From contig JACOUS010000040.1 of the NCBI GenBank assembly GCA_016177735.1, positions 1 through 64,000 of the forward strand: DNA of 64,000 nt, written 5' to 3'. The DNA is from Ignavibacteriales bacterium. Lineage in GTDB: Bacteria; Bacteroidota; Ignavibacteria; Ignavibacteriales; Melioribacteraceae. Positions 8,415 to 59,624 of the stretch are shown here, in pieces. The position numbers and the translations under genes are program-made. Under the pieces are notes generated by a model. That model searched no databases. It saw only the letters and a program-made list of their open reading frames with translations, and had not been told where the DNA came from. Positions within the stretch are counted from its first letter, which is position 1. The number at the start of each line of letters is the position of its first letter.

Positions 8415-10406
8415 CTACTTGAGATAAATCATTTTCTTCGTCTGCAAAAAATCATGTCCTGAGCTTGCCGAAGAGCTAACTTGAATACGATAAAAATAAA
8501 TTCCACTTGGTAGGGCGAATCGCCGGTTCGCCCCTACATCAAATGTAACATTATATTTTCCCGGTAGTTGTTGTTCGTTTACAAGCGTTGCGATTTCTCT
8601 TCCGAGTACGTCGTAAATTTTTAACGTAACCTGTTGTAGAGACGGGATATATCCCGTCTCTACGTTGGGGATAACATACTCAATAGTTGTCGTTGGATTA
8701 AACGGATTCGGATAATTTTGATTCAATTCTATTTCATGCACTATTTTCTCGCTGCCGTTTTCAAATTCATTAATATCGGTTACTACATCGGAAGCTTTGA
8801 TTGGATTTGCCCATGCCCCGTGCGTCAAAATTTGCTGTGTAAAAATTCTTTTTGAAAATTTTCCGTACTTGATCGTAAAGCCGGCACCGAACGTTGCGGC
8901 TTTTGTTTCTTCGGGAATATCAAAATAATCCGAAAAAGTATATTTGTTGTTAATCAATGAAACCACTCTTGATTTTGCCGTTCCCTCATCAAACCCGGCA
9001 TGCGGATGAACGGCGTATTGAATTTTATTCCCCTCGATTGTAAACAGCGAATCATTCACTACTTCCATTAACAAATAATTTTTGCCGCCGGGGTTTAAAT
9101 TAGAATTGAGTATTTGCATTTTTATTTCGGGAAGAGTGATTTCGTTTTTTGAACAAAGAATAGAAATTGTTTCCAATTTAACCGTATCGCCGTTTGCATC
9201 GAAGAAATTAAAAGCCAGTTGAACATCTTTTACTTGCTCATTTAAGATTACGAACAAACTGTCATAAAAATAATTTGATGCAATCTTTTGCCGCCAAACT
9301 ACGCTGCCGTTCAATGCAACAGAAAAAGAATCGACATCATCTGTTGTAAAAATTTCCACCGGAATTTTTCCGTAATAAATTTTTTCATTCTTCGGTTCGG
9401 TAATAATCGCTTTATTATATTTTTCGAGAGCAGACCAAACCGGGCGCGCAGTACCGTATTTATCATTTTGATTTGCAAACTCAATCAACCCAAACCATTC
9501 TTCGGGGGAAGAGTCGTGAACAAATTCATTTCCTCCTTTCCACCATCCGTCGTGATATTGAAAGACGGCTCCGCCTTGCGCGCCGGCGTCAATTAAACTT
9601 CTGTACATAAACAAATCGCCGTTTGTTTGTTGTGTCAAAGTATTTCCGCCGTAAGTATATTCTGTGCTCGAAGCCCCGGGCGAAACGGATAAACCAAACT
9701 CGGTTACTATGAACGGTTTTTGATTCGCGCGATTATTTTTTAAGTAACTCAAAAATCCGCTGTATCCGTGCGAGCCGGTGATCGTTACCGGGTTGTAGAT
9801 GTAAGCGTTGTAAGCAGCAAAATCAAAAATATCCATGTTGATATAATCACCAACAATGGTATTCGAAAACGAAACCGGTACACCCTGATGTTTTTGATGA
9901 ATCAAATCAATAACAGATTGCCAAAGTTCTACAAGATTTTGTGAACCGGCATCATAAATATGTGCAACTTGCGGTTCGTTCATTATTAAATAGCCGATTA
10001 CACATTTATATTTATTAGAATAATTAAGAACGTTGTTAACGTGATTGAGTGTGGAAGTTTTAAATGTCTGGCTCCCAAAATCTCCGCCCGGATCTATCCA
10101 GATTCCGAACAAAATTTTCAAGCCGGATTCTTCGACCAATTTTAATTCATCTTCCGTAATTGCGCCCCATGTTCGTATCGTATTGAAGCCGGCGGTTTTG
10201 ATCCTTTCCAAATCAAAGCGGATTAAATCAGCATCAAATTTGTAAACCCACGGCACTTGTCCCGGACGTGTGTGAGTTTCGTAACCGATACCCTTCACAA
10301 AAAATTTTTTGCCTTCTATGAAATACCAGCCGCCGGTTATTTGAACATTTTGTGCTAAGCAAATTTTTAATGTAACGATGGAAATAAAAACAAATATTAA
10401 TTTCAT
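8415..10406 (-). CDS. Secreted glycoside hydrolase-like (beta/alpha)8 protein with T9SS sorting domain
   Basis: 663-residue protein with a signal peptide (MKLIFVFISIVTLKICLAQ), then a (beta/alpha)8 glycosidase domain (about 20-330) of the GH5/GH2 superfamily. E144 in YLIMNEPQ is the expected acid/base and E236 in FIVTEFGLS the expected nucleophile. A beta-sandwich region follows (about 335-560) and then a C-terminal T9SS type A sorting domain (NQNYPNPFNPTTTI... to KKMIYLK), so the protein is exported by the type IX system and displayed or released. The sugar substrate is not clear. The sorting domain is longer than usual because three different palindromic repeats lie in frame within it (near 8456, 8510 and 8636). 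It faces the subtilisin gene in the same direction and may be co-expressed. Confidence 0.85.
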   Translation of the reverse strand: MKLIFVFISIVTLKICLAQNVQITGGWYFIEGKKFFVKGIGYETHTRPGQVPWVYKFDADLIRFDLERIKTAGFNTIRTWGAITEDELKLVEESGLKILFGIWIDPGGDFGSQTFKTSTLNHVNNVLNYSNKYKCVIGYLIMNEPQVAHIYDAGSQNLVELWQSVIDLIHQKHQGVPVSFSNTIVGDYINMDIFDFAAYNAYIYNPVTITGSHGYSGFLSYLKNNRANQKPFIVTEFGLSVSPGASSTEYTYGGNTLTQQTNGDLFMYRSLIDAGAQGGAVFQYHDGWWKGGNEFVHDSSPEEWFGLIEFANQNDKYGTARPVWSALEKYNKAIITEPKNEKIYYGKIPVEIFTTDDVDSFSVALNGSVVWRQKIASNYFYDSLFVILNEQVKDVQLAFNFFDANGDTVKLETISILCSKNEITLPEIKMQILNSNLNPGGKNYLLMEVVNDSLFTIEGNKIQYAVHPHAGFDEGTAKSRVVSLINNKYTFSDYFDIPEETKAATFGAGFTIKYGKFSKRIFTQQILTHGAWANPIKASDVVTDINEFENGSEKIVHEIELNQNYPNPFNPTTTIEYVIPNVETGYIPSLQQVTLKIYDVLGREIATLVNEQQLPGKYNVTFDVGANRRFALPSGIYFYRIQVSSSASSGHDFLQTKKMIYLK
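8456..8477. repeat. Repeat fragment inside the T9SS domain (GAGCTTGCCGAAG type)
   Basis: The stretch GTCCTGAGCTTGCCGAAG resembles a dispersed palindromic repeat seen in many bacterial genomes. On the minus strand it encodes part of SSSASSGHD, residues absent from the corresponding place in the canonical sorting domain of the neighbouring 1779-residue protein. Identification as an inserted repeat is inference. Confidence 0.5.
8510..8537. repeat. 28-bp palindromic repeat inside coding sequence (GTAGGGCGAA type)
   Basis: Inverted arms GTAGGG-CGAA and TTCG-CCCCTAC around TCGCCGG, with one bulged base. It is in frame and encodes the extra residues VGANRRFA between the last two strands of the sorting domain, where the canonical form has only NAINIA. 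Confidence 0.75.
8636..8663. repeat. 28-bp perfect palindrome inside coding sequence (GTAGAGAC family)
   Basis: Perfect inverted repeat: arm GTAGAGACGGGATA followed directly by its complement, centre at 8649/8650. Read on the minus strand it encodes VETGYIPSLQ within the sorting domain. An identical 28-bp copy sits at 10742-10769 in the next T9SS gene. Confidence 0.92.
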
Positions 10407-10532
10407 TTTTCATTTTACCCGATGAATTTCAGAAGGATAATTAAGCCGTGCTGAATAGAAGCCGGCGCTGTGTTTGAATTAATCGACTTTTCTCTTCATA
10501 AAATGATTATTAATTTTTTTTGTAACATTTTT

Positions 10533-13376
10533 CTATTTCAACAAAATCATTTTGCGGGTGGCGGCGTATTTTCCAACGCTCAATCTATAGAAATAAATTC
10601 CGCTCGATAATTCAGCGTTCCCGCCTTGGCGGGCAGGCTGCGTTCTGAACTCTACACTGTGTTTCCCGGGCAATTGTTGTTCATTTACAAGCGTCGCTAT
10701 TTCTCTGCCAAGTATGTCGTAAATTTTTAACGTAACCTGTTGTAGAGACGGGATATATCCCGTCTCTACGCCGGGAATCACATATTCAATTGTTGTTGCC
10801 GGATTAAACGGATTTGGATAATTCTGCTTTAAAACAAATTCATTTGGAAGTTGTGTTGTCTCGTTCTCAACATCAGTAATCAATTGATATTTTATTCTGC
10901 TTTGTTTTATTGCATTTTTCAATTCATCAAGCGAAACGCCGGCGGCAATTGCAAAAGCTACATTTGTTTTTCCTCCGGCTGGAATGTTGAACGGACCTCC
11001 GCTTATTATATAAGAAATATCTGTTGTATCATTAAATCCGTTTGTTATTCCGTTTGAAAGTGTAAACCATTTATCGGCATCGCTAAACCCATTTGCAAGC
11101 AGACCGGTAGCAGATGCATTGTCGATCGGATAGTAGCCGTAACTATTCGATGAAATTAATGCAGTGCCGGCATATAGATTCGTGCTGATGGCATTGTACG
11201 CATATCCGAAATTATCTTCGGAATCGTAAACGGTTATATCATGCGAGTAATCCGATTCCGGCATGTCCCAATCAATAAAATAGCCGGCATAAAGATTATC
11301 AATATTTTGTTGGGTGGAATTAACGAGCTCGGTTCGTAAGATTATATATCCGTCATCGGGCGAACTGCTGAAGCTGTACGAATAAAAATTTGTTGTGATG
11401 CCGAGACTCGAAGCACCGCTGCCGTTATCGTTAAAAATTGTGAAGCCGACTTGATCGGCAGCTGTTCCATCGTTTGTAATCTTCACCGGTTCAACAATTT
11501 GAAAATCGGTGCTTTGTGAAGAAGAAATTCTCGCAACGTCCATTAACCGTTCTGCAGATGTTCCGTACATAAATGCACCTTCGAACATTTGATTTTCACC
11601 GCTCGTGTATCTGAATCCGGATCCTTCCTGATTATCAAAGTAGTCATTAAACCCAAGCGCACCTTTGCTTGTAACGCTCATCGTTATTCTGCCGGAGTTG
11701 TGTGTGTCGTAAGTCTGATTAATGCGCGTTTCGAACCATTGAAAATCCGAATAGTTATCGGCGGAAATTTCCAGCCGCATTTTTAAGCTATGATTGTACG
11801 GAGCGTTTGCGGCTATCTCGAATTCAAACGCGCTCGTTGTAAATGTTTGAAGCGTATCGAGTGCCGGTAATTGAATGACGGATGTTTTCACTGTTGCGGA
11901 CGGATCATCAATAATAAGTTGAACACTACCGCCGTTAATTTTTTGCAGAAAGTTTGTAAACGTAATTTCAATATTTGCCGTTTCGCCCGATTGAAGTATT
12001 CCGTTTCCGCTGCCGTGTTCAACAAAATTTATTTCTGTTCCTCTCACGGAAGTGAACGCAGTATCTTTCAAAGCATTGTATGCATTGATTCTTCCGCGTC
12101 CCAATAAAAATTTTAAACTGTCGGGATTGATTCCATAAACATCATCGCACGATACACGAATTCTTTCCGCTGCTTGAAGAGGTGTGTAGTGAGGAAATTT
12201 TGTAAATACGAGTCCGGCTAAGCCGGAAACAAGAGGAGCCGACATTGATGACCCGCTGATTGCTATGTAAGGAGAATCAATCTGTGTAACAAACGAGGGC
12301 CACGAAGAATAGATTGAAGAGCCGGGCGCGGTTACATCAACATACAAACCGTAATTGCCAACGTTATCTTCCGTATCCGTGCTGAGCCAGCCGACCGAAA
12401 GCACACCTTTGTAACTTGCCGGATAAAACGGAATACTCACACCGTTATTTCCTGCAGACGATATAACAAGCGCACCTTTTGAAATTGCATAATCAATTGT
12501 TTCTTGCTCGAAGCGAGAGTAACTGTATCCGCCCCAACTGCAATTGATAACTTTCGCGCCGTTATCTGCGGCATATTTTATTCCTTCGTATCCGTAAAAA
12601 ATGTACGGATTGTTTGCAAAATCTCTCCGGTCTCCCCGCGATGCTTTTACCGGCAAAATCGAGCAGTTAAAACCAATTGATGCAATGCCTTTGTTGTTAT
12701 CGGTAACTGCACTTGCAATTCCGGCAACATGCGTTCCGTGATAACCGGTAAAACTTGTTGTGGTTTGATCTTCAATCGGATCGTCATCGGCGGTTCCATT
12801 CGATCCGCCAAAATCATATCCGACTAATTTTCCGTTTGCATCTCTAAAAATATTTGCGGATAAATCGGGGTGCGTCCAATCAACGCCGGTATCAACAATC
12901 CCGATAACAACACTGCTGTCGCCTTTCGTGATATCCCATGCTTGTTCGGCGAGTATTCTTTTCAAGTTGGTTTGTTTATTGGTGTCGGCTTTATCTTTAA
13001 TAAATTTCGGATCGTTCGGTGTGTACACAACTTGCCGGACATACTTCGGTTCCACCCATTCAACTTCTTGTAATTGTTTTAATCGTTTTGCTGCCGTAAC
13101 CGGATTTTCATCACGTAAAAATTCCATCACATAAATTCTCTCGATTCCGCTGCTGCCTTTATGAAGCGCTGGTTTCTCATCCTTAAAAATCTTTTCAAAT
13201 TTTTGAACGGAAAGTTTTGGAGAGATTTTTTCAAAAACATTTTGCGGTTCTGCATTCTCTTTTAGTTTTACAACTAAAGTATTCGATAGATAAAAAGTAT
13301 TTCCATCTTGCAGAATTTTTTCTTGTGCATTAACTACTGCGGCAAGAAAAAGAACAAAGAATACGATTCTTTTCAT
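10533..13376 (-). CDS. Subtilisin-like serine peptidase (S8) with T9SS sorting domain
   Basis: 947 residues from the chosen start. Signal peptide MKRIVFFVLFLAAVVNAQ; an inhibitor-like propeptide (about 25-120) ending VEPKYVRQVVYTPNDP; then the S8 catalytic domain with Asp162 (IVDTGVDW), His213 (GYHGTHVAG), Asn310 (SSAGNNG, oxyanion hole) and Ser377 (SGSSMSAP). A long beta-rich region (about 440-850) follows, then a T9SS type A sorting domain (KQNYPNPFNPATTI... KKMILLK). It is a secreted or surface protease. A start 84 nt further upstream is possible, but 13376 gives a proper signal peptide and has GAGGGC 10 nt before it. Two palindromic repeats (10620 and 10742) lie in frame in the sorting domain. 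Confidence 0.93.
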   Translation of the reverse strand: MKRIVFFVLFLAAVVNAQEKILQDGNTFYLSNTLVVKLKENAEPQNVFEKISPKLSVQKFEKIFKDEKPALHKGSSGIERIYVMEFLRDENPVTAAKRLKQLQEVEWVEPKYVRQVVYTPNDPKFIKDKADTNKQTNLKRILAEQAWDITKGDSSVVIGIVDTGVDWTHPDLSANIFRDANGKLVGYDFGGSNGTADDDPIEDQTTTSFTGYHGTHVAGIASAVTDNNKGIASIGFNCSILPVKASRGDRRDFANNPYIFYGYEGIKYAADNGAKVINCSWGGYSYSRFEQETIDYAISKGALVISSAGNNGVSIPFYPASYKGVLSVGWLSTDTEDNVGNYGLYVDVTAPGSSIYSSWPSFVTQIDSPYIAISGSSMSAPLVSGLAGLVFTKFPHYTPLQAAERIRVSCDDVYGINPDSLKFLLGRGRINAYNALKDTAFTSVRGTEINFVEHGSGNGILQSGETANIEITFTNFLQKINGGSVQLIIDDPSATVKTSVIQLPALDTLQTFTTSAFEFEIAANAPYNHSLKMRLEISADNYSDFQWFETRINQTYDTHNSGRITMSVTSKGALGFNDYFDNQEGSGFRYTSGENQMFEGAFMYGTSAERLMDVARISSSQSTDFQIVEPVKITNDGTAADQVGFTIFNDNGSGASSLGITTNFYSYSFSSSPDDGYIILRTELVNSTQQNIDNLYAGYFIDWDMPESDYSHDITVYDSEDNFGYAYNAISTNLYAGTALISSNSYGYYPIDNASATGLLANGFSDADKWFTLSNGITNGFNDTTDISYIISGGPFNIPAGGKTNVAFAIAAGVSLDELKNAIKQSRIKYQLITDVENETTQLPNEFVLKQNYPNPFNPATTIEYVIPGVETGYIPSLQQVTLKIYDILGREIATLVNEQQLPGKHSVEFRTQPARQGGNAELSSGIYFYRLSVGKYAATRKMILLK
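10613..10642. repeat. Palindromic repeat inside coding sequence (CCCGCC-TT-GGCGGG type)
   Basis: Hairpin CCCGCC TT GGCGGG at 10620-10633 followed by CAGGCTGCG. On the minus strand it encodes TQPARQGGNAE, where the canonical sorting domain has about six residues before SGIYFY. The repeat differs from the one at the equivalent place in the upstream hydrolase gene (8510), so the two insertions look independent. Confidence 0.75.
10742..10769. repeat. 28-bp perfect palindrome inside coding sequence (GTAGAGAC family)
   Basis: Identical to the palindrome at 8636-8663 and at the same place in the sorting domain (encodes VETGYIPSLQ). The flanking residues LKIYDxLGREIATLVNEQQLPGK are also nearly identical between the two genes, so this shared copy may have spread by duplication or gene conversion of the module. 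Confidence 0.92.
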
Positions 13377-13482
13377 CGATGCCCTCGCAAATAATTTTTC
13401 CATAGTAAGTTTATTAAGAAGGCGGATGATTAACAACGTTTTTGTTGTTCGGCTTGACAAAAATTTATTTTGTTTCTTTGCG

Positions 13483-13558
13483 TTTGTAGAGACGCACCGA
13501 GTACGTCTCAGAAGAAAAAAACATTTACACGGGATACGCGTTCGACGCGCTCTACAAA
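13483..13558. repeat. Decayed palindromic element with TTTGTAGAG ends
   Basis: The ends TTTGTAGAG (13483) and CTCTACAAA (ending 13558) are exact inverted repeats; inside lie GACGCACCGAGTACGTCTC and CGCGTTCGACGCG hairpins. The left part matches the GTAGAGAC...GTCTC palindrome family. It sits between the thioester protein gene and the subtilisin gene. Confidence 0.72.
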
Positions 13559-13637: not shown

Positions 13638-16600
13638 TTACTTCATCAATATCATCTTCTTGCTGATGTTTACTTTTTCGCCGCTTAATTTGTAGATGTA
13701 CATTCCGCTTGCAATATTGATTGCATTGAATTTCACGTTGTGCATTCCGGCATTCAATTCTTCGTTCAGCAATGTTACCACTTCCTGACCAAGTATGTTA
13801 TATATTTTTATTGTATATCTGCCGGCTTCAGGAACTGCAAACCGGATTGTTGTACTCGGATTGAACGGGTTCGGATAATTCTGGTTCAATGCGAACTCGG
13901 TCGGAACTTCACTTTCGGAACCAACATCTGTTACACTATTAACGCGCGCAAGGAATATCTTTCCTTCTTTTGTTCCAACAAATACATCATCCGAACTTGA
14001 GCTTACGAGCAACGAGCTTACTCCGAAGCCGCCCATGCCGAGCGAAGACCATGTATTTCCGTTATCTGTTGAAACAAATACACCGCTTGTCCAAGAAGCA
14101 ACATATACTTTTCCGGTTCCGTCAACTGCGATGGAGTAGATGAAAGGAGCTGTTAAGTTTTCAACTTTCGACCAACTCGATCCGTTATTCAACGAACGGT
14201 AGAGACCGTCGCCGTAAGTTCCGGCAAAGATTGCATTGCTGTTGGCACCGAGAGCCCAAACAAAGTTGTAACCAACATTTACGTTAACCCATGTTGTACC
14301 GTTCAGTTTGAATACTCCGCCGCCGAAGCTTGCCGCAAATACTTCGCCGCTTGCACTTATTGTTAATGACTGAATAGCAAGTAAGCCTTCGAATCCGTCG
14401 TTGAGTTCATTCCATGTTGCGCCGTTATCTGTTGAAGTGAAAACGCCTTCTCCCCATGTACCGGCATAAATAACTCCGCTGCTGATTGCAAGAGCGTGAA
14501 CATCTTTTCCGTTAAGCGAAGTAAGAATCCATGTGCTTCCGTCAAATTTGAATACGCCTTGTTCTGTTGCCGCGAAAATGTAACCGCCGCTGATCTGTAA
14601 CGACCAGATGAACGATACATTCATGCCGCTGTTGATTACTGTCCAGTTCTGTCCGCCGTCTGTAGATTTGTAGATTTTTCCGCCCCATGTACCGGCATAA
14701 ATATTTCCGCTGCCGTCATAAGCCATTGTGTAAACAATTTCGCCCGAAGCAAAACCGTTAACATACTGCCAGTTATTTTCGTTACCGTTTCCATTATTCT
14801 GATTATTGTTACCGCTGTTATTGTTGGTTATTGTAATTATGGCATTGTCACTGTTGTTGCTTGAATCAGGATCCGGTGTTAACGAACTTGTAATTGTTGC
14901 TATGTTGTTAATCTCTCCTTCAAACGGAATATTTCCGATAAAGAGAGCAAGATTCATTTGACCCATTCCGGTTAAAGATTTGCAGATCATCTGACCGTTG
15001 ATTACACCGCTCACAAAATCTACATCTGCAAACGGAGCGAGCAATGATCCTCTTATATCAATTCCTTGAATAGTTAATGTTGCTGCTTGATAGAAATTAT
15101 ATAATACGTTTGTAATGCTTGTACCGGTAACAGTCAATCCGCCGGTCCAACTAACGTTTGTACCATCGATGTTAACAAGAACTACTGCACCGTTCGGAAC
15201 ATCGATTGCAACATTGTTTGCAGAAGATAAATCCGAGCCGCTGACCGCGAATACGTTTAAGAACGGATCGGTACCGGTTAATGTTAATCCGCCCCACTGC
15301 ATTGTTGTTGTTCCGTTAACAGAGTGAGTAGATAACGTTGTCGAAAGATTTTCCAAATATGTTTTTGCAGATGCAAAATTAATCGGGTTATCCTGACGCA
15401 ATGTTCCGCCGGTTATACTTACCGAAGGCTGCGGCAAGTTTGTTGTGTTTCCGTAAACAACATTTCCGTTATAAACCGCACCGCTTATGAATGTAAGATC
15501 GTGACCAACAATTAATACATCACCGCTGTTAGCCGGCAACTGATCGCCGATGCTGTAGTTTGCAAAGTATGCATCGTGTCCAACCGCTACTTTACCTTGT
15601 GTATCGGATGACGGCTGGTTAGCATCGTTAAGTACAAACAAGTTGTAGTCTGCTGCCGGACCAAGATTGAATGTTGAATTGTTAACCTGACTGCAGTCAA
15701 CTGTAGCACTGATTGTTAATGTTGCGGAAGCACCGCTGTTAAGGTCGCCGATTGTCCATATTCCGGTGTTTGCATCATACGTGCCTTGCGAAGGAGTGCT
15801 TGTGCTGTAAATTAATCCGGAAGGCAATAAATCACTTACTACAATTCCTTTTGATTTTGCCGGACCGTTGTTTGTTACTTTAATTGTATATGTAATTTGG
15901 TCGCCGCATTCAGGTGTTGAATCGTCAACTAATTTTTCAATCATCAAATCTGCTTTTTCATCGCAGATTATATTTACAGCTGCACTGCTTTCATCAATAA
16001 CTGCGGCATAACTAATAGATGTACCGGAACAAGTTAAGAATCCGTTATCAACCGTACCGTTATCGAAGTTCTCATTTATTGCAGTAGCTGTTTCAGTAAA
16101 TTGGCTGTAAGTATAAGTTGTAGAACCGCCGCCGAGAGCTGCGTTTGCAAGTGCAAGGAACTGATTAACACTCATGCCCGCAAATGTTCCGCTTGCAATA
16201 ATAAGATCACCGAGATTTGTTGCGTTTGTTCCGACATATCCGGCTTCGTCGAATTCAACATTGAGCATTAATGTTACAACATGACCGGCGAAAGTATTGT
16301 TTAATGAATTTCCCGGATCGGTGTAGTTTTGTGTTAGTGCAGAAGGTGTTCCGCCCGAAGGCAAGAAATCTTCTACTGCTTGTGCGCTTGTGAGTGTTAA
16401 AGTTTTATTTCCGCCGGCTATTAATCCAGCCGGAAATACTATTGAGAAATATTGATCGCGAATTTGTCCCGGTGTGCTGTTGGATGAACTTCCCCAACCG
16501 CCGGGGGTGTAAGTTGTAAATCCGTTTGTATCACAATTCTGCGATGAACCCTCAACCGGATGTCCTTCGGCAATTGCTGTGTTGATTAATAATCCGCAGT

Positions 16601-18977
16601 CGTTTTCTGTTGCTGTGTAATCCATTGAGAATGAATAAGTCTCGCCGGGATTAAGAACATCGATATGTTTTATTTTATGATCGCCGTTCGGATTCAGCAT
16701 TGCATCAAAAACATCAACGCCGCCGTGTAATTGTAAGTCGCCGCAGTTTTCAATTGTGAATGTGTATGTAATTACATCGCCTGGAACTGCATCTTGTTTG
16801 TTTGCGGTTTTGATTATGCTTACACAAGTTTTGAAGAAACCGAAATCTATTGTGAGATCATCATTACAGTTCAGAGTAACCGATACTTTTTCACCGCTGT
16901 TTGCATCGCTGTCTATTGTATCATCGGAGCCTTGATTTTTCTTTGTTGAATACCACTTCATTTGATTTGTACTGTAAAGTGTTCCGCCGCTCTGGAAATT
17001 TGAATTGGATAGTCTTACTTCGTAAGTGCCGTTTGAAAGATTTGCAAATTCATATTTGCCGCTTGCATCTGTTGTTGTAGTTGAAATTACGTTACCGTTC
17101 AAGAGTAGTTCAACAATAACGCCGGGTATTCCGGGTTCGCCTGAATCTTGAATACCGTCAACATCTTTATCATGCCATACAAAATTGCCGATTTTGCTTT
17201 TGCATTCCTCTTTATATAAACCGGCGTCCCATGTTAAATCATTTTCGCCGCTTGTTAATGTTGTGCAGATTGTTTTGCCGGTTGTTTCGTCTGCATCGGA
17301 ATCTTTTGCGTCATCGCTTCCGGCATCCTTTGTTGTGAATACATATGTAGCCGGTTTTACAAATTCTACATAATAATCGCCGGGTGTTAAGTTCGAGAAT
17401 AAATAATTGCCGTTCGCATCTGTTGTTGTGCTTGCTATAAAGTTATTGTTGCAGTCATATAATTTTACTGTAACGTTGGCAATTCCGTTTTCACCTGAAT
17501 CTTGTATTCCGTCTTTATTAGTGTCTTCCCAAACTTTATCGCCGAGCGATGCTTTCGGTTCGTTGCAAATTAAGAAACCGTTATCAACTGTTCCGTTATC
17601 AAAATTTTCGTTGATTGCAGTTGCGGCATCTGTAATATCGCTGTAAGAATAGGATGTTGAACCGCCGCCCAGTGCTGTATTCGCAATTGCAAGAAATTGA
17701 TCAATTGTTAAACCGGCGAATGTGCCGCTTGCAAAAACAAGATCAGCGAGGTTTGTTGAGTTCGTACCGAGATAACCGGCTCTATCGAATTCTACGTTGA
17801 GTGTTAATGTAACAACATGTCCGGCAAGTGTGTTGTTTAGTGAGTTGCCCGGATCAGTATAATTTTGTGTTAATGCAGAAGGCGTTCCGCCCGAAGGTAA
17901 GAAATCTTTTACCGCAGAAGCACTTGTTAATTCTAAAGTGTAATTGCCGCCTACCGTTAAACCGGAAGGAAATACTGTCGAAAAATATAAATCGCGGATT
18001 TTGCCCGGCGTGCTGTTTGATGAACTTCCCCATCCGCCCGGAGTAAATGTTGTGTATCCGTGAAGATCACATCCGGTAGAATTATACCATTCAACTGTTG
18101 CAGTAATTTCTTTTTCATCGAATGACGGTGTTGCTAAAACTAATTTCTGTTTATCGTTCGGGCTGCTTTTATGAACATATCTTGTTCCTTGAGGAATTTC
18201 TACATCTGCTCTAACTTTAATTGTTGCTGTGCCCGTACCGTTATATGATAAAGTGAAAGGACCAACGTGACCGTTTGCATCTGTAGTGCCGCTGTTTGTA
18301 TTCAAAGAACCGAGTGTTGCAGAAATTTGAACTGCGATTCCCGAAGCCGGATTGCCGTTAATATCAAATGCGTAAACATCAAATACCGCCGGAGTGTTTT
18401 GTAATAATGCTTGAGTTGACGGAAGTATAATTAATGTTTGGAGTGCTGCAGAGTTGTTATGATTTGCATTTGCATCGGCAATAATTGCGAGCGCTCTATT
18501 TTTTACGTTAGTGTTGTTTGTAATTGTATTTGCATCAACGCCGTCGCTGAAATGCCAGATAGAAATTTGAACTGCTGCCGCTTCTTCATTATTATCGGAA
18601 AGTTTTCCCGAATAACTTGTCTTGTACGGAAAATAGTTGTTCAAGATATAAGTTATTTCGGAAGGCGTATTTCCTTCATCCCAATAATCTTGATTGTACA
18701 CCAAACTGTGTTGAAGATCGATGCAATAAAATTTTTCCGAATGTGAATTAAGCGTGCCGTTAAAAACTCCGGCAAAATTTTGAGCTGTACTATTCGTATA
18801 AGGATTTGTGTATTTAATTGTCTTTCCCTCAGCCGTTGCTGTTATTTTAGCATAGCTGGTATAATCTGTTACGCTTTTTGCTCCCCCTTTAATCTGAGAA
18901 AAAGCATTACTTGAATAACCAAATAAGAGTGTAAGTATAAAAAGTACTCTTAAAATAGGTTTCGGCTGTAAATACAT
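13638..18977 (-). CDS. Thioester-domain surface protein with SdrD-like, DUF11, choice-of-anchor A, propeller and T9SS domains
   Basis: 1779-residue secreted protein. After a signal peptide (about 1-28) comes a thioester domain: Cys85 in KFYCIDLQH and Gln137 in AAVQISIWHFSDG, matching the Cys and the hydrophobic-Q-x-x-hydrophobic-W motif of Cys-Gln thioester adhesins. Then an Ig-like (Big-1) domain (about 195-270), a ~165-residue module present twice (about 303-469 and 813-982), two SdrD B-like domains between the copies (LGDKVWEDTNKDGIQDSGENG and GNFVWHDKDVDGIQDSGE), a DUF11 domain (about 1000-1090), a choice-of-anchor A domain (about 1095-1360), a low-complexity NNNSGNNNQNNGNGN linker, a BNR/sortilin-like propeller (about 1400-1680) and an undisturbed T9SS sorting domain ending KKMILMK. 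A strong GGAGG site precedes the ATG. Likely an adhesin; the ligand is unknown. Confidence 0.9.
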   Translation of the reverse strand: MYLQPKPILRVLFILTLLFGYSSNAFSQIKGGAKSVTDYTSYAKITATAEGKTIKYTNPYTNSTAQNFAGVFNGTLNSHSEKFYCIDLQHSLVYNQDYWDEGNTPSEITYILNNYFPYKTSYSGKLSDNNEEAAAVQISIWHFSDGVDANTITNNTNVKNRALAIIADANANHNNSAALQTLIILPSTQALLQNTPAVFDVYAFDINGNPASGIAVQISATLGSLNTNSGTTDANGHVGPFTLSYNGTGTATIKVRADVEIPQGTRYVHKSSPNDKQKLVLATPSFDEKEITATVEWYNSTGCDLHGYTTFTPGGWGSSSNSTPGKIRDLYFSTVFPSGLTVGGNYTLELTSASAVKDFLPSGGTPSALTQNYTDPGNSLNNTLAGHVVTLTLNVEFDRAGYLGTNSTNLADLVFASGTFAGLTIDQFLAIANTALGGGSTSYSYSDITDAATAINENFDNGTVDNGFLICNEPKASLGDKVWEDTNKDGIQDSGENGIANVTVKLYDCNNNFIASTTTDANGNYLFSNLTPGDYYVEFVKPATYVFTTKDAGSDDAKDSDADETTGKTICTTLTSGENDLTWDAGLYKEECKSKIGNFVWHDKDVDGIQDSGEPGIPGVIVELLLNGNVISTTTTDASGKYEFANLSNGTYEVRLSNSNFQSGGTLYSTNQMKWYSTKKNQGSDDTIDSDANSGEKVSVTLNCNDDLTIDFGFFKTCVSIIKTANKQDAVPGDVITYTFTIENCGDLQLHGGVDVFDAMLNPNGDHKIKHIDVLNPGETYSFSMDYTATENDCGLLINTAIAEGHPVEGSSQNCDTNGFTTYTPGGWGSSSNSTPGQIRDQYFSIVFPAGLIAGGNKTLTLTSAQAVEDFLPSGGTPSALTQNYTDPGNSLNNTFAGHVVTLMLNVEFDEAGYVGTNATNLGDLIIASGTFAGMSVNQFLALANAALGGGSTTYTYSQFTETATAINENFDNGTVDNGFLTCSGTSISYAAVIDESSAAVNIICDEKADLMIEKLVDDSTPECGDQITYTIKVTNNGPAKSKGIVVSDLLPSGLIYSTSTPSQGTYDANTGIWTIGDLNSGASATLTISATVDCSQVNNSTFNLGPAADYNLFVLNDANQPSSDTQGKVAVGHDAYFANYSIGDQLPANSGDVLIVGHDLTFISGAVYNGNVVYGNTTNLPQPSVSITGGTLRQDNPINFASAKTYLENLSTTLSTHSVNGTTTMQWGGLTLTGTDPFLNVFAVSGSDLSSANNVAIDVPNGAVVLVNIDGTNVSWTGGLTVTGTSITNVLYNFYQAATLTIQGIDIRGSLLAPFADVDFVSGVINGQMICKSLTGMGQMNLALFIGNIPFEGEINNIATITSSLTPDPDSSNNSDNAIITITNNNSGNNNQNNGNGNENNWQYVNGFASGEIVYTMAYDGSGNIYAGTWGGKIYKSTDGGQNWTVINSGMNVSFIWSLQISGGYIFAATEQGVFKFDGSTWILTSLNGKDVHALAISSGVIYAGTWGEGVFTSTDNGATWNELNDGFEGLLAIQSLTISASGEVFAASFGGGVFKLNGTTWVNVNVGYNFVWALGANSNAIFAGTYGDGLYRSLNNGSSWSKVENLTAPFIYSIAVDGTGKVYVASWTSGVFVSTDNGNTWSSLGMGGFGVSSLLVSSSSDDVFVGTKEGKIFLARVNSVTDVGSESEVPTEFALNQNYPNPFNPSTTIRFAVPEAGRYTIKIYNILGQEVVTLLNEELNAGMHNVKFNAINIASGMYIYKLSGEKVNISKKMILMK
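16030..16536 (-). repeat. Internal duplicated module, copy B
   Basis: Encodes about 165 residues starting FTTYTPGGWGSSSNSTPG and ending NFDNGTVDNGFL. Copy A lies at 17570-18066. Segments such as FLPSGGTPSALTQNYTDPG are identical in both copies, indicating an internal duplication within the gene. Confidence 0.9.
17570..18066 (-). repeat. Internal duplicated module, copy A
   Basis: Partner of the copy at 16030-16536; begins YTTFTPGGWGSSSNSTPG and ends NFDNGTVDNGFL. The two SdrD-like domains lie between the copies. The DNA has drifted noticeably, so the duplication is not very recent. Confidence 0.9.
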
Positions 18978-57669: not shown

Positions 57670-59583
57670 ATGATGAGAAAAATTCTTTGGTCGTTTTTCG
57701 CCGCGGTTTGTCTTGTAAGTCTGACGGCAGCGCAGACTTCTCTTAATATTCCACGCAATGTTTTAAGAGCTTATGAAAAAGGAACTCGCTCATTCGACGG
57801 CAAACCCGGAAAAAATTATTGGGGCAACCATTCGGATTATTTTATCAAAGCGGAATTAATCCCACAAACAAGAACCGTTAAAGGATATGCATCGATAACT
57901 TATTACAATGACAGTCCGGATACGCTTAATCAATACGTGTTAAGATTGTATCAAGATATTTACAAAAAAGGAAGTTCGAGAGATTGGCAGCTCAACCCGA
58001 AAGATATTACAGACGGTGTTAAGATTGATACGCTGATTATAAACGGCAGCGGTGTAAGTTTTGAATCGAAGGATTACCGCGTAATGCGAGCGGCAACAAA
58101 TCTTGTTGTAAGTAGATTTCCAATTAAGATAGCTCCCGGCACAAGCGGCAAAATAGAAGTTGAGTGGAATTTTGTAATTCCGAAAGAATCCCGTTTGCGA
58201 ATGGGCGCTTACAACGATTCAACCTTTTACTCGGCTTACTGGTATCCACAGATTGCCGTTTATGATGATGTTGACGGATGGGACCGTCAAGAGTACAACG
58301 GCACAACAGAATTTTATAACGACAAAAATAATTTTGATGTTGAAATTACAGTACCCGGCGGATTTATAGTGTGGGCTACCGGCGTTGTTCAAAACACAAA
58401 AGAAAATTTGAAGCCGGAAATTTTTGAGCGCTACCAGAAAGCATTAGCTTCCGATGAAGTTGTTAGAATAATTACTGCCGAGGATTACAAAAACGGAAAC
58501 GTTACAAACGCCGGTGAAAAATTAACATGGAAATTCAAAGCCGAAGGCGTTCCCGATTTTGCATTTGCCGCGTGTGCAAAATATTTGTGGGACGGTTCAA
58601 GCGTAGAAGTTGATTACAATACATCGCGCCGTGTTTTTGCGGACGCCGTCTATCCGATTGGTGCAAAGTTTCAGGAAGAAGTAGCGCTCTTTGCAAGACT
58701 TTCTGTTGAACTTCTTTCGCACGAATGGCCCGCTATCCCTTTCCCCTATCCTAAAATTACAGTCTTCAACGGCGAGCAGCATGGCGGAGGCGGAATGGAA
58801 ACTCCGATGATGTGCAATAATGCTGTTTATAATAATCGTGCCGGGCAAATCGGAGTTACGGTTCATGAAATTGCGCACACATACTTTCCGTTTTATATGG
58901 GAATCAACGAAAGAAAATATGCGTGGATGGATGAAGGATGGGCATCATTTTTCACATTTGATCTCGTAAAAAGAATGGAGCCGGAAAGCGATGAATTACC
59001 GGGCTTTGTTAGAGTGCTAAACAATATGCTTGGCAACGAAGGGATGCTTCCATTAATTACGCCGTCATATTCTGTTAGAACCAACGGTTACGGGTCAATG
59101 GCATATCAACAACCGGCAATTGCATATTATATATTGAGAGATTTTCTCGGCGAAGAACTTTTCAAAAAAGCTTTGCACGATTACATCAACAACTGGAATG
59201 GAAAACATCCGATTCCTTACGATTTCTTTTTTGCTTTTGATAGAGTCGCCGGAGAAAACTTAAGCTGGTTCTGGCAGCCGTGGTTTTTCGAAAGAGGTTT
59301 TGCGGATCTTACAATTGAAGGAATTGAAAAAGCTAATTCCGTAGTGGTTAATGTGAAAAATCTCGGCACGTATCCCGTTCCGGTTGATCTAAAAGTAAGT
59401 TATGTTGACGGGATAACTGAAACATTTCATAAGCCGGCATCGGTTTGGAAAAACGGCGAGAAAGTTTACAAACATAAAATAGATTCATCGAAAGAAATTT
59501 CTAAAATAGAATTGATTCAGGTGCTTGGTCCCGATGTTAATATGAACAACAACAGTTACGAAGTAAAAAAAATAACACAATAA
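57670..59583 (+). CDS. Secreted M1 family metallopeptidase, tandem paralogue
   Basis: 637 residues, paralogue of the preceding gene with the same layout: signal peptide (MMRKILWSFFAAVCLVSLTAAQ), DGKPGKNYWGNHSDYFIKAEL, GGGMETPMM, zinc site HEIAH (399-403) and Glu422. HTYFPFYMGINERKYAWMDEGWA is shared with the neighbour almost unchanged. The tandem arrangement indicates duplication followed by divergence, perhaps to widen peptide specificity. A palindromic repeat follows its stop. Confidence 0.93.
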   Translation: MMRKILWSFFAAVCLVSLTAAQTSLNIPRNVLRAYEKGTRSFDGKPGKNYWGNHSDYFIKAELIPQTRTVKGYASITYYNDSPDTLNQYVLRLYQDIYKKGSSRDWQLNPKDITDGVKIDTLIINGSGVSFESKDYRVMRAATNLVVSRFPIKIAPGTSGKIEVEWNFVIPKESRLRMGAYNDSTFYSAYWYPQIAVYDDVDGWDRQEYNGTTEFYNDKNNFDVEITVPGGFIVWATGVVQNTKENLKPEIFERYQKALASDEVVRIITAEDYKNGNVTNAGEKLTWKFKAEGVPDFAFAACAKYLWDGSSVEVDYNTSRRVFADAVYPIGAKFQEEVALFARLSVELLSHEWPAIPFPYPKITVFNGEQHGGGGMETPMMCNNAVYNNRAGQIGVTVHEIAHTYFPFYMGINERKYAWMDEGWASFFTFDLVKRMEPESDELPGFVRVLNNMLGNEGMLPLITPSYSVRTNGYGSMAYQQPAIAYYILRDFLGEELFKKALHDYINNWNGKHPIPYDFFFAFDRVAGENLSWFWQPWFFERGFADLTIEGIEKANSVVVNVKNLGTYPVPVDLKVSYVDGITETFHKPASVWKNGEKVYKHKIDSSKEISKIELIQVLGPDVNMNNNSYEVKKITQ

Positions 59584-59594
59584 TTTACCCACAG

Positions 59595-59624
59595 TGTGGA
59601 GACTTGCCGCGGCAAGTCTCTACA
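59595..59624. repeat. Palindrome of the GTAGAGAC family
   Basis: GAGACTTGCCG and its complement form a perfect 22-bp palindrome (59599-59620), extended by TGTG and TACA with one mismatch. Ends match the family found at 8636, 10742 and 13483, but the core differs. Confidence 0.88.

Follow-up and report, generated by a model that had tools for sequence, protein, structure and literature searches.

The stretch of DNA analysed here, a 64-kb window (positions 1 to 64,000 of contig JACOUS010000040.1, assembly GCA_016177735.1, of an Ignavibacteriales bacterium), contains two adjacent minus-strand genes for cargo proteins of the type IX secretion system (T9SS), and the sorting domains at the ends of both proteins carry five short repeats in total, all of them in frame. 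Coordinates are those of the window, which belongs to a genome of 3.87 Mb in 44 contigs (G000). CTD denotes the T9SS type A sorting domain, family TIGR04183, for which the curated cut-off is 23 bits; lengths are given in nucleotides (nt) or amino acids (aa), and ORF stands for open reading frame. The genes, domains and repeats concerned are the following.

8415..10406, minus: T9SS cargo gene 1, an ORF of 663 aa; TIGR04183 match of 25.7 bits at the C-terminus, over the cut-off
8418..8714, minus: CTD of gene 1, inserts in all three loops (profile match and AlphaFold2 model)
8636..8663, minus: gene 1 loop 1, perfect 28-nt palindrome GTAGAGACGGGATATATCCCGTCTCTAC, encoding VETGYIPSL, CTD residues 18-26 (sequence and model)
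8510..8537, minus: gene 1 loop 2, palindrome GTAGGGGCGAACCGGCGATTCGCCCTAC on the gene strand (GTAGGGCGAATCGCCGGTTCGCCCCTAC on the forward strand), encoding VGANRRFAL, residues 60-68
8458..8473, minus: gene 1 loop 3, repeat CTTCGGCAAGCTCAGG, inside SSASSG, a weak hairpin
10533..13460, minus: T9SS cargo gene 2, a subtilase of up to 975 aa (Peptidase_S8 PF00082, E = 2.2e-40; TIGR04183 30.5 bits, over the cut-off)
10536..10820, minus: CTD of gene 2, inserts in loops 1 and 2
10742..10769, minus: gene 2 loop 1, perfect 28-nt palindrome GTAGAGACGGGATATATCCCGTCTCTAC, encoding VETGYIPSL
10620..10633, minus: gene 2 loop 2, palindrome CCCGCCAAGGCGGG on the gene strand (CCCGCCTTGGCGGG on the forward strand), inside TQPARQGGN
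13638..18977, minus: T9SS gene 3 with an insert-free CTD at 13641-13877 (TIGR04183 44.1 bits), used as internal control

An earlier note on this DNA had claimed five repeats in genes 1 and 2 and a normal domain without them in gene 3; the positions, the frame and the insert-free control were all borne out. Its description needs amending in two respects. The repeats do lie in frame within the sorting domains, but a third insert loop exists, with GAGCTTGCCGAAG before the last strand (GAGCTTGCCGAA stands at 8461-8472 of gene 1, in frame), and this fourth repeat (GAGCTTGCCGAAG) is no more than a weak hairpin, with a modest genome-wide count (12 vs 5 in a reversed control). A hairpin scan of the window kept 11 hairpins, against 1, 1 and 3 in three shuffles, and the two longest perfect ones are the two CTD copies of GTAGAGACGGGATATATCCCGTCTCTAC.

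Repeat kinds, fold and palindromicity of the sorting domains

The TIGR04183 profile gave 105 matches in G000 at E <= 0.01, of which 101 were marked as over the cut-off, and 116 in the same-genus relative G001, where a few weak or partial matches were left out. Filtering by motif, by a stop codon inside the stretch and by length (60-150 aa), with identical copies merged, yielded 87 and 94 distinct CTDs, respectively. Loop kinds were typed by our own peptide patterns, and the call between a naturally long loop and a repeat is a judgement. At least one typed repeat occurs in 35/87 CTDs of G000 and 31/94 of G001, and repeats occupy two or more loops in 21 and 23 of them. Three sites take up the inserts: loop 1 follows the IP motif, loop 2 precedes SGIYF and loop 3 precedes the KKM end.

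Loop 1 of G000 holds mainly GTAGAGACGGGATATATCCCGTCTCTAC and near variants (n = 11) and a longer GTAGAGAC form (n = 3); the main kinds are the CAGATTTCCAATCTG type (n = 8), CCCGCCAAGGCGGG (n = 6) and GTAGGGGCGAA (n = 4) in loop 2, and the CTTCGGCAAGCTCAGG type (n = 8), the GATTCTTC..CAGAA type (n = 8) and CTCGCCTGGGCGAG (n = 6) in loop 3. G001 has mainly other palindromes in loop 1 (CCCCTTAGTAAGGGG, n = 9; CCCCTCTCGAGAGGGG, n = 8; CTCCTTACCAAGGAG, n = 4) and in loop 2 mainly elements of the form GTAGAGAC...GTCTCTAC (n = 15), here called the GTAGAGAC family. The kinds of the three loops form 23 combinations over the 35 insert-bearing CTDs of G000 and 22 over the 31 of G001; this mixing of loop-2 with loop-1 kinds agrees with the separate gain of second-loop repeats that the earlier note had proposed. 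Further forms were observed in other genomes: a longer nested loop-1 element reading VETHLPAGRQGRDASL in a CTD of an Ignavibacterium metagenome-assembled genome (L208:5908-6186), a single CTD with one GTAGAGAC element in loop 1 and another of different interior in loop 2 (L426, G002 C87:8661-8814), and numerous genes of G042 with GTAGAGACGTCATATATGACGTCTCTAC in their loop 1 (L403-L423), where the end of the element seems to double as the start of the next strand (TSLRIYN).

The fold was modelled with AlphaFold2 for the gene 1 CTD (99 aa; 73-row alignment of 70 of the 86 CTD stretches from named loci plus the three window CTDs). The model has a mean pLDDT of 85.6 and predicts strands at residues 8-15, 27-34, 40-49, 52-59, 71-80 and 89-97; the inserts, at residues 18-26, 60-68 and 80-87, are predicted to fall between strands 8-15 and 27-34, 52-59 and 71-80, and 71-80 and 89-97. 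The non-loop segments are near-constant in length (16 aa in 175/176 CTDs, 29 aa in 170/176 and 8 aa in 176/176), so that model and segment lengths both place the inserts in predicted inter-strand loops, as had been claimed. Compared by strand order with the seven-stranded CTD of RgpB (PMC4804311), the insert loops map to s2-s3, s5-s6 and s6-s7, and the counterparts of the s3-s4 and s4-s5 loops, which are discussed there as possibly functional, are without inserts. A CTD sequence profile matched three PDB chains at E <= 0.01, including 8glj_D, a Por secretion C-terminal sorting domain (E = 0.00025); a Foldseek comparison of the model with the PDB gave no match at E <= 0.001.

Hairpins of score at least 7 were counted in the loops and in synonymous shuffles of the same peptides. 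Long loops 1 form them in 12/20 cases in G000 and 24/28 in G001, vs 8-9% in the shuffles, and loops 1 of normal length in none (0/67 and 0/66). The corresponding figures are 7/32 and 16/42 vs 4-5% for loop 2, and 4/25 and 5/18 vs 5-6% for loop 3, with 5/62 and 3/76 in loops 3 of normal length. Hairpins of score at least 8 number 33, 20 and 3 in loops 1, 2 and 3 and 0 in the s3-s5 segment. Loops 1 and 2 are clearly palindromic, beyond the need of their peptides. Chance palindromes were ruled out by these shuffles together with the hairpin scan of the window, and an oddity of a single genome by the other palindromes in the same loops of G001 and by CTD copies in further relatives.

Orthologues, divergence and dispersion of the repeats

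Gene 1 has orthologues in G001 (68%), G034 (66%) and G016 (62%). Those of G034 and G016 carry no inserts; that of G001 has a different loop-1 palindrome and, in loop 2, a GTAGAGAC element where G000 has the GTAGGG one. Among 36 reciprocal best pairs of cargo bodies of G000 and G001 (bodies limited to the fetched stretches), an insert is present on one side or both in 21, most of these being filled in a single genome or with different kinds. Loop 1 is empty in both genomes in 21 pairs, filled in one only in 11, filled with different kinds in 4 and with the same kind in 0; these numbers are 19, 14, 2 and 1 for loop 2 and 23, 10, 1 and 2 for loop 3. One pair with bodies 90% identical differs in two loops (G000_35 and G001_151), and another is offset by 18 nt in loop 3, between flanks that can be aligned (G000_38 and G001_159). 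Repeat-free versions of the same loci, which the earlier note had suggested looking for, thus exist, both for gene 1 and across the 36 pairs.

The palindromes themselves are far less diverged than their surroundings. Synonymous differences amount to 28/465 (0.060) in the G000 loop-1 palindrome, against 318/809 (0.393) and 471/1177 (0.400) in the flanking CTD, and to 0/76 (0.000) in the SKGR set of G001, against 66/142 (0.465) and 86/193 (0.446); two further sets give 0.075 and 0.079 inside the palindrome vs 0.33-0.46 around it. At synonymous sites the palindromes therefore differ about six times less than the surrounding CTD, and because of this low divergence they appear either younger than the domains that hold them or conserved as DNA. 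The element CTCCCCTTANTAAGGGGAG, with 8 sites in G001, all in CTD loop 1, and 0 in G000, is read in two frames (5 and 3 copies), which one insertion cannot yield unless the frame shifted later. By inspection, the flanks in G001_134 belong to that domain's own CTD class and its insert region resembles that of G001_141; G000_47 likewise combines the repeat and adjoining bases of a donor CTD with a host CTD of another class. Taken together, these sequences suggest gain through insertion followed by short-tract copying between CTDs, presumably by gene conversion. On a tree built from CTD cores (176 of 181 CTDs), the domains of genes 1 and 2 group as a pair with support 100/85, in keeping with the earlier view of their shared loop-1 repeat as a sign of domain copying.

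Sites of the GTAGAGAC family were classified by ORFs of at least 80 aa, without gene calling; those in doubtful ORFs (84-180 aa) of G011, G025, G029 and G049 were left unclassified, one G049 site lying beside an N run. The 21 exact sites of G000 comprise 10 in CTDs, 1 in a transposase-like gene described below and 10 between genes, of which 8 begin no more than 41 nt past a stop codon and the remaining two 53 and 834 nt past one. G001 has 7 sites of the family: 4 in CTD loop 2, 1 in another T9SS-associated domain and 2 intergenic ones, 16 and 4 nt past stops. The family is present in 27 of the 58 genomes searched (G000 included), and CTDs hold 20/22 of the sites in G042 (all in loop 1; one row reclassified by eye), 3/6 in G002, 2/3 in G031 and 1/12 in G014. 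At other loci, seven GTAGAGAC elements of loop 1 begin without exception at CTD codon 17; most loop-1 elements of the relatives do so too, a few being one codon off, and their interiors differ between genomes.

The same kind of palindrome also lies in frame in a loop of a different domain at L323:511-538 (G001) and L466:2024-2051 (G049), two genomes that belong to different families. This domain (VELTSF...YYRLKQIDFDG or VELTSF...YRLKQIDFDG) we take to be another T9SS-associated one. At 25 places in G000 (e.g., L057, L059, L060) there is a separate family with a 19-nt core such as CCCGCCAACAAACGGCGGG, whose checked copies are mostly intergenic, with 0 in CTDs.

RAYT-like genes with internal elements

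Eight ORFs in seven genomes (G000 and six relatives) resemble the transposases associated with repetitive extragenic palindromes (REPs), known as REP-associated tyrosine transposases (RAYTs), and contain a GTAGAGAC element within the ORF, a short way past the HuH motif. They are listed below with two related repeats of the window.

C16:158649-159227 (L462): RAYT-like gene of G000, one element inside; a diverged second one begins 2 nt past the stop
L413, L424, L429, L442, L448, L465, L471: the other RAYT-like genes with an internal GTAGAGAC palindrome
13487..13555 of the window, no strand: a pair of imperfect repeats of the GTAGAGAC type beyond the stop of gene 3, read off the sequence
59595..59624 of the window, no strand: GTAG-type palindrome TGTGGAGACTTGCCGCGGCAAGTCTCTACA, 12 nt past the stop of the ORF at 57670-59583, from the hairpin scan

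Profile NF047646 matches the ORFs with E-values of 8e-18 to 5e-14 (five ORFs) and 3e-15, 1e-9 and 6e-6 (three ORFs); they are called RAYT-like because all score below its curated cut-off (26-65 vs 80 bits). The HuH motif and the C-terminal region are conserved, with invariant MPxHxH, W-Q-x-R and N-P positions, in the five aligned ORFs (the other three are not in the alignment), and the ORFs of G041 and G049 are incomplete. The element is read in another frame in the genes of G042 and G002 than in the rest. A search of G000 with PF01797 gave four matches, none beside a GTAGAGAC element; this search missed the C16 gene and is too insensitive to count such genes.

Interpretation and comparison with known systems

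We consider it probable that REP-like elements, likely moved by a RAYT, entered tolerant CTD loops and were then copied among CTDs by recombination. Palindromes of the GTAGAGAC...GTCTCTAC form and several other kinds would enter the three loops of the type A CTD in frame, and the RAYT-like HuH transposase gene at C16 of G000 is a likely candidate for the mobiliser of the GTAGAGAC kind. In ordinary genes the same insertion would mostly destroy function; a CTD loop would be spared because the domain is a compact beta-sandwich, recurs about 100 times per genome and, in the species studied, such as Porphyromonas, is removed once the protein has been exported (PMC8545088, PMC4804311), and the inserts would be neutral for secretion. 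Once arrived, a repeat would spread by short-tract recombination between CTD paralogues, which would lead to lineage-specific sets, above all in loop 1, and to the mosaic of loop 1, 2 and 3 combinations. The idea of mobile palindromes in insertion-tolerant loops of sorting domains, put forward in the earlier note, is supported overall, with amendments on dispersal and on the sharing of loop 3, and its notion that they diversify a secretion signal holds for the sequence.

Several observations weigh against this account. The exact elements of the CTDs are not freely dispersed, so that no present-day jump into a CTD is seen: all 8 sites of CTCCCCTTANTAAGGGGAG are CTD-confined, and 11 of the 14 G000 sites of the exact loop-1 core GACGGGATATATCCCGTC (at most 1 mismatch) lie in CTDs. 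Free dispersal with the CTDs as one target among many was set aside on this ground, and the claim that the repeats are dispersed in the genome stands for the wider GTAGAGAC family, found between genes, but not for the exact loop-1 repeat, much of whose spread must therefore be CTD-to-CTD copying. Some genomes use the CTD loops heavily as a refuge and others not at all, with no CTD site in G029 (0/11), G011 (0/10 classified of 11) and G025 (0/3). Loop growth is often, in net terms, below element length (+24 nt for 28 nt), which simple insertion without trimming does not fit, and a near-clean filled/empty pair was found in 1/5 orthologue pairs aligned base by base (G000_38 and G001_159). Insert-bearing orthologues have CTD cores less alike than their bodies, by a weak test (p = 0.07 for core minus body, p = 0.03 for the middle CTD segment) whose chance probabilities, computed as if the copies were independent, which they are not, carry no weight. 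Loop 3 is palindromic in part and weakly, the low synonymous divergence could stem from selection on the palindrome, and the RAYT-like ORFs fall short of the family cut-off, as noted above. The two genomes also have kinds in common, as would be expected of old inserts: in loop 1, where the kinds are nearly disjoint, a single one (GTAG-ACC, 1/4 copies in G000/G001); in loop 2 three in unequal numbers (1/15; GTAGGGGCGAA, 4/2; CCCGCC, 6/1); and in loop 3 the two commonest (8/6 and 8/8). With the kinds of loop 3 shared, not all repeats are lineage-specific.

The same sharing in loop 3 and in part of loop 2 would suit pure domain duplication, in which repeats would have been acquired by a single ancestral CTD or a few and passed on to new genes with the entire domain, without independent gains in the loops. 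The 11 CTDs that share the G000 loop-1 repeat are 72-86% identical from the CTD start to the repeat and 27-47% further upstream, identity breaking off where the domain begins; duplication would also account for this, and for the fact that most inserts fall in one large CTD group. Yet on the tree of CTD cores 36, 33 and 34 changes are required to explain the labels of the three loops, a rough count with 80/173 branches open, and the many combinations of kinds, the palindromes far less diverged than the domain around them and the one element read in two frames are all hard to obtain from whole-domain copies, so that we regard duplication by itself as improbable. A role of the palindromes as nucleic acid (an mRNA hairpin near the 3' end, a recombination site or protein binding), with coding tolerated, is likewise improbable. 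In its favour, 92.9% of pairs are preserved across the 20 distinct GTAGAGAC elements found in CTD loops, with 34 two-sided cells vs 12.9 in shuffles (0/500 as high), the count of pairs with two-sided change being weaker (6 vs 4.5; 48/500), and the family often stands just past stop codons, like REPs elsewhere (PMC3733652); but variants already palindromic before arrival yield the same covariation, decayed copies are common (G001_122, 132 and 142; G000_62 and 79), most CTDs carry none and the loop-1 kinds differ between the sister genomes.

That the inserted peptides were selected to vary the secretion signal, for instance in partner or anchoring specificity, we hold to be very improbable. Peptide kinds and combinations over the three loops are indeed many, and one of the loops lies within the C-terminal two-strand hairpin of the CTD, which is considered the main signal that the T9SS recognises (PMC4804311). 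Peptides of one kind, however, recur in unrelated cargo, in the loop of the RAYT-like protein and in the other T9SS-associated domain, and therefore fit the coding of the element and not design. Within the account by insertion and copying, it is conceivable, if doubtful, that RAYT-driven REPs use two coding refuges, the CTD loops and the loop of their own transposase after the HuH motif, with insertion perhaps aimed at a site, since GTAGAGAC elements of different interior share the loop-1 position (within a codon) and the frame across genomes. If so, the element would travel inside the gene that moves it.

The T9SS tag family would then be a natural record of selfish DNA living inside working genes and, with about 100 copies per genome, a natural experiment on which protein loops tolerate foreign peptides; the inserts mark tolerant loops of a secretion signal. 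Palindromes within genes are tied to a candidate transposase in the same genome, which makes it testable how such elements enter and spread within coding genes. There is also a caution for annotators: inserts accompany low CTD profile scores, the 18 CTDs of G000 with a typed loop-1 repeat scoring 22-41 bits vs up to 59 for others.

REPs and Rickettsia palindromic elements (RPEs) inside ORFs are known, and loops were already suggested as tolerant sites (PMC3733652). Within open-access literature of incomplete coverage, no precedent was found either for a concentration of diverse palindromes in three loops of a single amplified export signal, with sets that vary among relatives, or for REPs carried within RAYT genes, and there was no recognised match on T9SS palindromes or gene conversion, Ignavibacteria repeats or the peptide LPAGRQ; term searches for 'intragenic' and 'in-frame' had no hit in Nunvar et al. 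(PMC2817692) or in Bertels and Rainey (PMC3116915). The closest likeness is to the GTAG REPs and REPtrons of Di Nocera et al. (2013; PMC3733652), short RAYT-linked palindromes of 20-40 nt with GTAG ends that are mostly intergenic, near gene 3' ends and sometimes inside ORFs, the REPtrons having flanking REPs, some of which overlap gene ends. The GTAGAGAC...GTCTCTAC elements are palindromes of 28 nt, with longer forms to 49 nt, and are linked to a RAYT-like ORF in G000 by the element inside it and the diverged one after its stop. Unlike those REPs, in which the tag is unpaired, GTAG here pairs with CTAC within the stem (perfect 14-bp arms), the copy number is low (21 exact G000 sites, 10 of them intergenic), and clear in-gene copies concentrate in CTD loops and RAYT-like genes, whereas PMC3733652 stresses genes of DNA synthesis and repair.

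With the RPEs, as cited in PMC3733652, the repeats share their palindromic nature and in-frame position inside coding genes. Unlike the RPEs, they comprise several unrelated short kinds (14-49 nt) focused on three loops of one high-copy domain family. RPEs are, moreover, longer than the elements described here. The domain itself belongs by profile to the same TIGR04183 family as the CTD of RgpB (PMC4804311) and is predicted to be a beta-sandwich; from the RgpB domain it differs in that three of its loops are lengthened by repeat-derived peptides.

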